Shown piece after piece: positions 40,037 to 44,125 of a DNA stretch of 44,125 nucleotides. The stretch lies in NCBI GenBank assembly GCA_021851525.1, contig JAJZDA010000007.1:1-44125 (forward strand). The letters run 5' to 3'. Origin of the DNA: Actinomycetes bacterium. GTDB taxonomy: Bacteria; Actinomycetota; Thermoleophilia; Solirubrobacterales; Solirubrobacteraceae. Positions within the stretch are counted from its first letter, which is position 1. Each line of letters starts with the position of its first letter. Position numbers and translations under genes: made by a program. The notes beneath the pieces are model-generated. The model was not told the origin of the DNA, made no database searches, and saw only the letters and a program-made list of their open reading frames with translations.

Positions 40037-42406
40037 TCAGAGACTCGCTGCCAGTTCCTCGGTCTGCTGCAGCATCAGCTCCAGCAGGTTGAGACCTGCG
40101 TCCCAGAAATCTCGATCCGTGACGCGCAGGCCGATCATCACCGCGAGCTGCTCCGGGCTGCGTGATCCGCCGGCGGCGAGCATCGCCAGGTAATCCTCGG
40201 CGAAGGCGCCGCCGATCTTCTGATAGCGGTCGAACGCGGACCAGGCGGTGAGCAGGCCGTGGGAATAGCTGTAGAGATAGCCCGGCTCCTCAATCAGGTG
40301 GGGGATCAGCGACCAGACCAGGCGCGTGCCCTGGTCGATCTCGATCGTGTCGCCCCAGAGCTCGCGCAGCGACCCGGCCCAGATCTCGCAGAGCTCCTCA
40401 GCGCTCAGCTCCCCGTGGTCTCGCACATGACGGTGCATGGCGGCCTCGGCTGAGAGCAGCGCGCAGGCCTCGAACACGTTGAGCATCGCGTCATCCAGGC
40501 GGGCCGCCAGCAGCGCCAGGCGCTCATGGTCGTGCGCCGCCTGACGCATCAGGTGCTCGGCCACCAGCGCCTCCGAGAAGGTGGAAGCGACCTCCAGCAT
40601 CGGGCTTGAGCTGTCCCACTGGAGTGCCCGCTGACGGCGGGAGAGCTCGAAGTGCAGGGCGTGCCCGAGTTCGTGTGCCAGGGCCATCGTGTCCCTCGGG
40701 TGTGAGTCGTAGTTCACCAGCACGTAGGGGGGTGAGCTGGTTCCCGCCTGGGCGCAGAGCGCGCCGTCCTGCTTGTTGGCGCGGATCGGTGCGTCGATCA
40801 GCCCGTGTGTGAAGAAGCGGTCGATGACCTCGGCGGCGCGGGGTGAGAACTCCGACCAGGCCGCTGTGATCAGCTGCCGGGATTGCGCGAACGTGATCTG
40901 CCGCGTGACGCTCGGAAGCGCGGCCCGCAGGTCAGCTGTGGTCAGCCGCTCGACCCCCAGCAGGCGCGCCTTCAGTCGGTTCCAGCGTCGTGCGAGGTCA
41001 CGCCGCGCGCTGATCGCCTCGAGCTGGGCGGCAACCGCGCTGTCACTGGTCTCGTTGGCAAGATTGCGCGCTGACAGCCAGGTCGGATAGCCGCGCAGCC
41101 GGTCATCGACGGCCTTCTCGCCCAGCACCTGGTTGTAGGCGGCGACGCGCGTCGGCAGGCCTGCCAGAGCGCCGGTCGCGATCGCCGCGATCGCCGCCGC
41201 CCGCTGCTCACGTACGGGCGAGGAGAGGGTGCTCATGGCCTGCGCCATCGGCACCGAGTCTCCGTCGATCTCCGCAGTCAGGCTCGCGGCGTTCTCGGCA
41301 TAGAGCCGCTTCCAGGCCGCCAGCCGCTGCACGCTCGTCTCGGCCAGGACGCGTTCCTGCTCATGCGTCAGGAGATGGCGCCGGCGGGCGCGCAGGCGGC
41401 GCAGGTGGTGGGCGGCAAACGCGAGCCGCTGTCCCGCGCCCGTCAGCAGCGCCTCGGCGCTGGCGTCGTCCAGCGCTGCCCACTCCAGCTCAAAGAACGA
41501 GAGCTTCCCGTCGATCTCGGCCTGGGCCGCCTCGGCAGCCGCCTGCAGTGCGCCGGCGGCACTGTCGGAGCTGTCCGCAACGCCGCGCATCAGCGCATAG
41601 CCGCCCGCGCTGCGCAGTAGCTCGGAGACCTCGCAGAGCTCGGTGGCGAGGCGCACCAGCGCGTCCGCGTCGAACTGCGCCACCCTGCCGGTGAACTCGG
41701 CCGCCAGCGCCTCGGCCCGTGCGCGGGCCGAGGCCAGCAACCGCCTCGCGCCATCCTCGCCGTGGTGGTCGACGATCGGCGCCAGATCCCAGACGGCGGC
41801 CTCCAGATCGGGATCGCCGAGCTCGGCCGGCTCACTCACCGCACCACGACCTGAGCGCCATTCGGATTCGAGCATCGCAAAGTCGATCTCATCGCTCCAG
41901 CCGCCCTTGAACCATTCGTTCTCGATCAGCCGCGCCTCCCGGCGCATCCCGAGCCGCTGGGCCAGCCTCAGAGACGGGCCGTTGCGCGCGTCAATCCTGG
42001 CGACGATCCGGTGGAGCCCGAGCTCCTCAAAACCGAGGCGCAACAGCTCAGCGGCGGCCTCAGTCGCGTAACCGTGACCCGCATGGTCGGGATTGAGGAT
42101 CCAGCCGACCTCACCGCAACGGTGCAGCTCACTGTGGATGAACAGCGTGACGTCGCCGATCAGCCGTGCGGATTCGGCGAGCTCCACGCCGAGGGTCAGC
42201 GCCGAGTTCTCAGCGGTGATTGCGGTCTGCGACCAGCGGTCCGCAAGCCTCTCGGCGATCATCTGGCGGCTCATCGGCGCGAACGGCACGTAGCGGCACA
42301 CCTCTTCGAGCGACCGATAGGACAGCAGCGCAGCGATGTCCGCGTCCGACAGGGGGCGCAGCAGCAGCCGCGCGGTCCGCAGCGGGTACGTCGGCCGGAG
42401 CTCCAC
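40037..42406 (-). CDS. GNAT acetyltransferase - oligoendopeptidase F (M3) fusion
   Basis: N-term GNAT TARLLLRPLSDADIAAL...GEVGWILNPDHAGHGYATEAAAELLRLGF; C-term M3 AHELGHALHFELS. Confidence 0.9.
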   Translation of the reverse strand: MELRPTYPLRTARLLLRPLSDADIAALLSYRSLEEVCRYVPFAPMSRQMIAERLADRWSQTAITAENSALTLGVELAESARLIGDVTLFIHSELHRCGEVGWILNPDHAGHGYATEAAAELLRLGFEELGLHRIVARIDARNGPSLRLAQRLGMRREARLIENEWFKGGWSDEIDFAMLESEWRSGRGAVSEPAELGDPDLEAAVWDLAPIVDHHGEDGARRLLASARARAEALAAEFTGRVAQFDADALVRLATELCEVSELLRSAGGYALMRGVADSSDSAAGALQAAAEAAQAEIDGKLSFFELEWAALDDASAEALLTGAGQRLAFAAHHLRRLRARRRHLLTHEQERVLAETSVQRLAAWKRLYAENAASLTAEIDGDSVPMAQAMSTLSSPVREQRAAAIAAIATGALAGLPTRVAAYNQVLGEKAVDDRLRGYPTWLSARNLANETSDSAVAAQLEAISARRDLARRWNRLKARLLGVERLTTADLRAALPSVTRQITFAQSRQLITAAWSEFSPRAAEVIDRFFTHGLIDAPIRANKQDGALCAQAGTSSPPYVLVNYDSHPRDTMALAHELGHALHFELSRRQRALQWDSSSPMLEVASTFSEALVAEHLMRQAAHDHERLALLAARLDDAMLNVFEACALLSAEAAMHRHVRDHGELSAEELCEIWAGSLRELWGDTIEIDQGTRLVWSLIPHLIEEPGYLYSYSHGLLTAWSAFDRYQKIGGAFAEDYLAMLAAGGSRSPEQLAVMIGLRVTDRDFWDAGLNLLELMLQQTEELAASL

Positions 42407-42665
42407 GTGGTCATGCTAATCGCAGGCCGGCAGCGCGCGAGCTGGTCATCTCCCGGCGCCTGGCCGGCACGCTGGGACCGTGCCGCTGCAAATGCGGCCA
42501 GCGCGCGTGCAGACCCACGGACTCAGGGAACCGAGGCGTTTGGAGACGCCGTGCGTGCGGAGCGCCGCGGCGTTGGCGGGCCCATGCCGTTCGGAGGGCT
42601 CCCGCGTTCACCGAGTGTCGACGTCGGTTGGTGCCGGAGCCGAGATCACCGTATGCTCGAGGAGC

Positions 42666-42725
42666 ATGACGTCGTTGGTGCAGTGTTCCTGCTGGTGGCG
42701 GCCGCCGTACACGCGGTCCCGCTGA
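42666..42725 (+). promoter_or_regulatory. candidate trpS leader peptide with tandem Trp codons
   Basis: ATG ACG TCG TTG GTG CAG TGT TCC TGC TGG TGG CGG CCG CCG TAC ACG CGG TCC CGC TGA = MTSLVQCSCWWRPPYTRSR*. Confidence 0.75.
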
Positions 42726-42735
42726 TCTGTGTTCA

Positions 42736-42757
42736 CGGGCCGCTCTCGAGCGGCCCG
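42736..42757 (+). terminator. attenuator hairpin between leader peptide and trpS
   Basis: CGGGCCGCT-CTCG-AGCGGCCCG; alternative pairing of its 5' arm with GCGGTCCCG (42713-42721). Confidence 0.65.
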
Positions 42758-42813
42758 CTGTGAGTCTGACGACGTCACCGCTCGGGAGAGACCCTCTCTG
42801 GAAAGGGTGCTCT

Positions 42814-43833
42814 ATGACTCACCCCTCGGCGCCGGTCGATCCGGCCTTTGCACTGCGGGTGCTTACCGGTGACCGTCCAACAGGGCAGCTTCACATCGGC
42901 CATCTCTTGGGAACCCTGGAGAACCGCGTGCGCCTTCAGGAGGACGGCCTGGACGTGTTCGTGCTGATCGCCGACTATCAGACGATCACCGATCGCGACA
43001 GCCCGGCCTCGCTGGCCGCTGATGTGGAAGAGCTCGTCGCCGACTACCTCGCGGTGGGGATCGACCCCGGCCGCTCGACGATCTTCGCTCACTCACTGCT
43101 GCCGGAGCTCAACCAACTGATGCTGCCGTTCCTGAGCCTGGTGACGCTGCCTGAGCTGCTGCGAAACCCGACCGTCAAGGACGAGGCCGCTACCGCCGGG
43201 ATGGAGACCCTGAACGGGCTGATGCTGACCTATCCGGTGCACCAGGCGGCGGACATCCTGTTCTGCCGCGGAACGCTGGTGCCGGTCGGTGCCGATCAGC
43301 TTCCTCACATCGAGCAGACGCGCGTGATCGCGAGACGTTTCAACCGGCGTTACGCACCCGACCGGCCCGTGTTCCCAGAACCTGAGCCGCTGCTCAGTGG
43401 CGCGCCGATGCTGCTCGGCACAGATGGGCACAAGATGAGCAAGAGCCGTGGCAACTCGATAGCGATAGCCGCCAGTGCCGATCAGACGGCGCGCCTGCTG
43501 CGCTCTGCCAGGACTGACTCAGATCCGCATATCACCTACGACCCGGTGAACCGTCCCGAGGTGTCCAACCTGGTGCTGCTCGCCGCTCTGTGTGAAGGCG
43601 TCGCCCCGCTGCTCGTGGCCGAGCAGATCGGTGGAGGTGGCGCGGTTGCCCTCAAGCGCCGCGTCACGGAGGCCGTGAATGAGCGCCTGCGCCCGATCCG
43701 TGAGCGCCGTGTTGAGCTCGCGGGCGACCGTGCATACCTGCGGTCGGTGGTGCGCGAGGGCAGCAACCGCGCCCGTGCCATCGCGCAACAGACCCTCGCG
43801 GACGTCGCGCACGCGATGCACTGCGGCTACTGA
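42814..43833 (+). CDS. trpS: tryptophan--tRNA ligase
   Basis: GDRPTGQLHIGHLLGTLENR, PVHQAADILFCRGTLVPVGADQLPHIEQTR, GTDGHKMSKSRGNSI. Confidence 0.97.
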   Translation: MTHPSAPVDPAFALRVLTGDRPTGQLHIGHLLGTLENRVRLQEDGLDVFVLIADYQTITDRDSPASLAADVEELVADYLAVGIDPGRSTIFAHSLLPELNQLMLPFLSLVTLPELLRNPTVKDEAATAGMETLNGLMLTYPVHQAADILFCRGTLVPVGADQLPHIEQTRVIARRFNRRYAPDRPVFPEPEPLLSGAPMLLGTDGHKMSKSRGNSIAIAASADQTARLLRSARTDSDPHITYDPVNRPEVSNLVLLAALCEGVAPLLVAEQIGGGGAVALKRRVTEAVNERLRPIRERRVELAGDRAYLRSVVREGSNRARAIAQQTLADVAHAMHCGY

Positions 43834-43998: not shown

Positions 43999-44049
43999 CG
44001 ACCCTGGGGGAGAAACCCGGCGTGGGGCCTGGTTTCTCCCCCAGGGTCG
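43999..44049. repeat. 19-bp perfect inverted repeat
   Basis: CGACCCTGGGGGAGAAACC-N13-GGTTTCTCCCCCAGGGTCG. Confidence 0.92.
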
Positions 44050-44053
44050 CGAT

Positions 44054-44125
44054 GTGGCCCCCCGGGTCGCGGGGTGGCCCCCCGGGTCGCGGGGTGGCCC
44101 CCCGGGTCGCGGGGTGGCCCCCCGG
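44054..44125. repeat. 20-bp tandem repeat GTGGCCCCCCGGGTCGCGGG, ~3.6 copies, runs off the window
   Basis: Direct reading of consecutive units to the window edge. Confidence 0.92.

Follow-up and report, generated by a model that had tools for sequence, protein, structure and literature searches.

The closest described system to the locus reported here is that of trpRS1 (SCO3334) of Streptomyces coelicolor, which encodes an auxiliary indolmycin-resistant tryptophanyl-tRNA synthetase (TrpRS) and is subject to ribosome-mediated transcriptional attenuation (Vecchione and Sello, 2010, J Bacteriol 192:3565, cited in PMC4787780). An attenuator was also predicted for trpS2 of S. avermitilis, and the same source describes attenuators of trp operons in Streptomyces and Corynebacterium (PMC1262725). 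In S. lividans, the trpS leader is itself reported to be leaderless and to have no U-rich stretch after its two hairpins (PMC8079986). The window (the whole stretch of 44,125 nucleotides analysed here) contains a region that very probably acts as a ribosome-mediated attenuator like that of the E. coli trp operon, with charged tRNA(Trp) as its signal and the gene of an auxiliary TrpRS as its target. It is a known type of switch, found here in a class of the phylum other than that of Streptomyces; its leader is longer and includes segment 2, the second of its four pairing segments. No earlier report of such an attenuator in the window's class was found in the literature, and the locus extends the range of the trpRS1-type attenuator far beyond the Streptomyces relatives in which it was studied.

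The window shares with the S. coelicolor trpRS1 attenuator the clade of the target gene, Trp codons in a short leader and competing hairpins, the last of which is a GC terminator before the gene, and differs from it in having no U-tract. The window leader has 19 aa versus about 13 aa in Streptomyces, its segment 2 lies within the ORF, eight codons downstream of the two Trp codons, whereas in Streptomyces it starts at the stop codon, and the leader stop is separated from the gene by 88 nt versus about 150-310 nt. The attenuators of PMC1262725 show, like the window, tandem UGG codons and gGCC-rGCy-GGCC complementary triples, but they are reported with poly-U tracts and from other orders, the window's class being outside that coverage. 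E. coli trpL shows the same four-segment logic (1:2, 2:3 and 3:4) and tandem Trp codons; however, it controls biosynthesis, has a 14-aa leader and is followed by a clear U-tract, and sequence homology with it is not claimed.

The regulated gene is a trpRS1-like trpS (42814-43833, + strand) encoding an auxiliary TrpRS (TIGR00233, 221 bits; PF00579). The earlier note had named trpS as the target, which holds for the enzyme family, but the gene is a second, auxiliary copy and not the housekeeping one: the other TrpRS of the genome (G000:C68) is 34% identical to the window TrpRS, within the 30-40% or so taken to mark a second TrpRS. The window TrpRS shows 79% identity to the copy on a MAG contig (L003) and 63-68% identity to the auxiliary copies of Actinomadura, of two genomes of the same class belonging to another family (f79), and of Streptomyces. 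The trpS of the genus taken here as Streptomyces (g85) shows 76-81% DNA identity to two named Streptomyces records. Within the window's family, only one of 146 genomes, that of the window, contains an intact auxiliary trpS. In the tree, the window and L003, the f79 pair, Actinomadura with Streptomyces, and a large sister clade fall into a single group, which a 100/100 split separates from the ordinary TrpRS sequences, so that the window enzyme groups with the Streptomyces auxiliary ones. At the site of His43 (B. stearothermophilus numbering), a position assigned by motif and not by structure, the window TrpRS shows Gln in place of His (DYQTIT versus DLHAxT in the housekeeping copies). Gln occupies this site in all 37 TrpRS of the attenuator clade, and His is found in the ordinary TrpRS that are readable by motif. 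Gln is found in the sister clade as well and is therefore a mark of the enzyme clade, not of the attenuator. A change of His43 to Asn confers indolmycin resistance (PMC4899734). Having no indolmycin-contacting His, the window TrpRS can probably charge tRNA when the housekeeping TrpRS cannot, and would be insensitive to the drug.

Upstream of trpS, a leader ORF (42666-42725, + strand), with ATG at 42666 and TGA at 42723-42725 read directly, encodes the 19-aa peptide MTSLVQCSCWWRPPYTRSR and contains tandem Trp codons (TGG TGG) at 42693-42698; leader, sequence and coordinates are as the earlier note gave them. The Trp codons are kept in the relatives, where WW, WRW or WSW stands in the same place. 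A predicted promoter (42628-42657, + strand), read from the sequence, consists of TTGGTG (42628-42633), an 18-nt spacer and TATGCT (42652-42657). This -10-like box predicts an RNA start at about 42664-42666, and not downstream of 42666, so that the leader ORF would be leaderless or nearly so. A -10-like box is also present 6-8 nt 5' of the leaders of relatives: TATCCT in L003, TACACT in Streptomyces and TACCAT in Actinomadura. Scans of the region for consensus promoters and terminators gave no match; such scans are ill-suited to high-GC promoters and to hairpins without a tail, and the -10-like box of the window is too weak for them. An Rfam search upstream of trpS gave no match to the T-box or to any other riboswitch family, in the window or in its relatives. 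A match to an Rfam microRNA model at 44004-44044 (E 0.2), 3' of the gene, was considered to be due to chance.

Folding gives four segments: segment 1 (42694-42705, + strand), which overlaps the Trp codons; segment 2 (42713-42723, + strand), which pairs either with segment 1 as protector or with segment 3 as antiterminator; segment 3 (42736-42744, + strand), the 5' arm of the terminator; and segment 4 (42749-42757, + strand), its 3' arm. The hairpin CGGGCCGCT-CTCG-AGCGGCCCG (42736-42757), on which the earlier note relied, is a 9-bp stem of -19.3 kcal/mol (z -3.9), and none of 200 shuffles is equally stable. The pairing said to compete with it, between 42713-42721 and 42736-42743, is likewise present (8 bp with a bulged U42717) and lengthens to 11 bp through pairing of the stop UGA (42723-42725) with UCA (42733-42735), reaching about -17 kcal/mol (-17.2). 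The protector hairpin 1:2 (42694-42705 with 42713-42723; 11 bp, -17.3 kcal/mol), absent from that note and found by folding, completes the classic four-segment attenuator. The three helices are mutually exclusive. A ribosome of usual footprint stalled at the Trp codons should cover the RNA to about 42708-42710, which would leave segment 2 free. When the RNA is free from 42709-42713 on, 2:3 is the minimum free energy fold as long as the transcript ends before about 42752, and 3:4 replaces it only when complete; this order of folding along the growing transcript is the kinetic logic of trp attenuation.

In the proposed mechanism, transcription would start at or just 5' of the leader ATG. With Trp-tRNA(Trp) charged, the ribosome would reach the stop codon and cover segment 2, 3:4 would pair and transcription would stop before trpS. 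With charged Trp-tRNA scarce, either by Trp starvation or because the housekeeping TrpRS is blocked, for example by indolmycin, the ribosome would stall and cover segment 1, segment 2 would pair with segment 3 ahead of the synthesis of segment 4, allowing transcription of trpS. With no ribosome, 1:2 would form and leave 3:4 free. The trp-attenuation logic put forward in the earlier note is supported, since all its parts are in the sequence and are conserved beside the same enzyme in distant genomes; of the findings that the note named as refuting, none is seen at the level of sequence.

The nearest leader to that of the window is found in L003 (MSSPTVRCCWRWPLLLRPR), which has 19 aa, the Trp codons in the same position and the same set of hairpins; the leader of the relic L170, in a genome of the window's genus, also keeps the length of 19 aa and the Trp position. 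A covariance model (R1) was built from the window, L003 (a MAG) and L170 (a gene relic) and searched in 399 genomes of the window's class. It matched the window, two relics, L179, L180 and two further loci at E of about 6e-4, the latter treated as chance; weak RNA-model matches at L177, L178, L181 and L182 were rejected, none of them adjoining a TrpRS gene. L179 and L180 lie directly upstream of auxiliary trpS genes and show Trp-x-Trp leaders, MTSAHRTRWSWPH and MTCATRTRWSWPH, respectively. An independent protein search (E <= 1e-75) in a class sample of equal size yielded intact copies in three genomes only, those of the window, L179 and L180. In five class-level loci, namely the window, L003, L170, L179 and L180, the helices 1:2, 2:3 and 3:4 are all present and mutually exclusive. 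As to covariation among the leaders of relatives, which the earlier note had proposed as a check, helix 1:2 has one base pair in which both partners differ and two in which a single partner does, but with three sequences this is not significant alone.

Of the 30 Streptomyces copies, 24 have a tandem-Trp leader, for instance MTSVPCRNWWRSS, that precedes GGGCCG...CGGCCC hairpins; the leaders of two others contain a single Trp codon, and four copies have no recognisable leader. In the Streptomyces-like L157 and L160, the first Trp codon of the leader has changed to CGG, so that one is left, and the hairpins are intact. The copies of Embleya, Nonomuraea and Rhodococcus show tandem-Trp leaders and hairpins, and a leader is present in Actinomadura. 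No recognisable leader was found upstream of the Ornithinicoccus copy, nor upstream of trpS in L143 (genome G554). The attenuator is therefore not universal among these trpS copies, given the Streptomyces and Ornithinicoccus copies without a leader and the two Streptomyces leaders with a single Trp codon.

The sister clade contains TrpRS that are 54-58% identical to that of the window. None of its 27 upstream regions shows a leader plus hairpin, and two of them contain a stray WW ORF without a hairpin. When the genomes of this clade were rechecked, a single TrpRS was found in 21 of 21, none with leader plus hairpin, whereas the attenuator-clade genomes that were checked contain two to three TrpRS in seven of seven cases (G554, itself without a recognisable leader, being among them). 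The attenuator thus tracks the role of spare enzyme: it is present where TrpRS is a second copy and absent where the clade provides the sole TrpRS.

The tail of the hairpin (CTGTGAGT) contains no U-tract, as the earlier note had stated; such a tract is usual in attenuators without strictly defining them. Since it is missing in the window, L003, L170, L179 and L180, intrinsic termination is not assured, and 3:4 is to be taken as a putative terminator. It is conceivable, though rather unlikely, that in the window's class the same leader and stalling logic has a translational or Rho-linked output, the hairpin alone not releasing RNA polymerase: release would follow a Rho- or Nus-dependent route, or translation would be gated by a small hairpin at the trpS start, the switch exposing a Rho site or altering access to the trpS ribosome-binding site. 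The likelihoods given to this reading and to attenuation overlap, because leader and stalling logic are common to both. A Rho-linked or translational output would fit the lack of a U-tract in all class-level copies and in Nonomuraea and Rhodococcus, the position of the predicted terminator, which ends 56 nt before the trpS ATG, and a small hairpin that abuts the trpS start codon in the window (42786-42813), L003, L170, L171 and L179. Against it, many Streptomyces orthologues have U-rich tails 3' of the same hairpin, and the S. lividans trpS leader of PMC8079986 is, like the window, reported to have none, so that the lack in the window has a precedent and is not unusual. Compared with shuffled sequences, the small hairpin has no extra stability in the window, L003 or L170; it is stabler only in L171, where it has 9 bp, and in L179. 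A translational layer acting through this hairpin is not claimed, the hairpin being convincing only in the relic L171. If the output were Rho- or Nus-dependent or translational, the locus would represent trp attenuation with an altered mechanism, carried along with an accessory resistance gene. In itself, the locus offers a clean case for examining how transcription terminates in high-GC bacteria at hairpins that have no U-tract.

The locus could also be a chance ORF next to an unrelated GC-rich hairpin, for example the terminator of something upstream, as hairpins are cheap in high-GC DNA and the fold of the whole 95-nt leader has a z of only -0.57. However, the upstream gene is divergent and needs no terminator here. 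The arrangement was defined as TGGTGG in the frame of a short ORF, with a perfect stem of 9 bp no more than 60 nt further on. When the 407-nt intergenic region was shuffled 5000 times with its dinucleotides preserved, this combination never arose, and in the whole window, both strands included, it occurs at this one site only. The same arrangement stands 5' of orthologues in several families, and with this conservation, which refutes it, a chance origin has a negligible probability. Slightly less remote, yet highly improbable, is that the leader senses another signal, such as Cys (its peptide contains CSC) or drugs that target the ribosome, the Trp codons being a coincidence. In the leaders of the window, L003 and Streptomyces, Cys codons adjoin those for Trp, and S. 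coelicolor trpS SCO3334 belongs to the WblC antibiotic-stress regulon (PMC7157823); but the L179, L113 and Nonomuraea leaders contain no Cys, what stays constant is the presence of Trp codons (WW, WRW, WSW, WWW), and the target gene encodes a TrpRS, all of which favours attenuation by charged tRNA(Trp).

Two genomes of the window's genus keep the attenuator, or remains of it, and have trpS deleted. In G026 (L170, 1780-2100), the promoter, the Trp codons and all the hairpins are kept and the leader start reads ATA; the match to trpS ends after about codon 46 and is followed by a palindromic repeat resembling one located 3' of the window trpS. In G015 (L171, 1715-2013), the leader is frameshifted, most of the 5' arm of the terminator is lost, and an in-frame deletion leaves a small ORF made of the trpS start and its last 35 codons. 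These relics suggest that the accessory trpS was once more widespread in the genus and was lost repeatedly. The window repeat is a near-perfect 23-nt inverted repeat, GGGGGAGAAACC...GGTTTCTCCCCC, at 43999-44049, and the likeness of the palindrome at the L170 cut-off to it may point to a link with the deletion. A tandem 20-nt repeat, CCCCCCGGGTCGCGGGGTGG, extends over 44038-44117, up to the contig end. The L003 contig is titled Acidobacteriaceae, and its TrpRS and leader are the closest to those of the window, whose genome groups in another phylum with Streptomyces-like genomes; the contig is possibly misnamed or misbinned. On the other side of the intergenic region, 40037-42406 (- strand) contains a single ORF of 789 aa, divergent from trpS, in which a GNAT acetyltransferase is fused to an M3 peptidase of the oligopeptidase F type.
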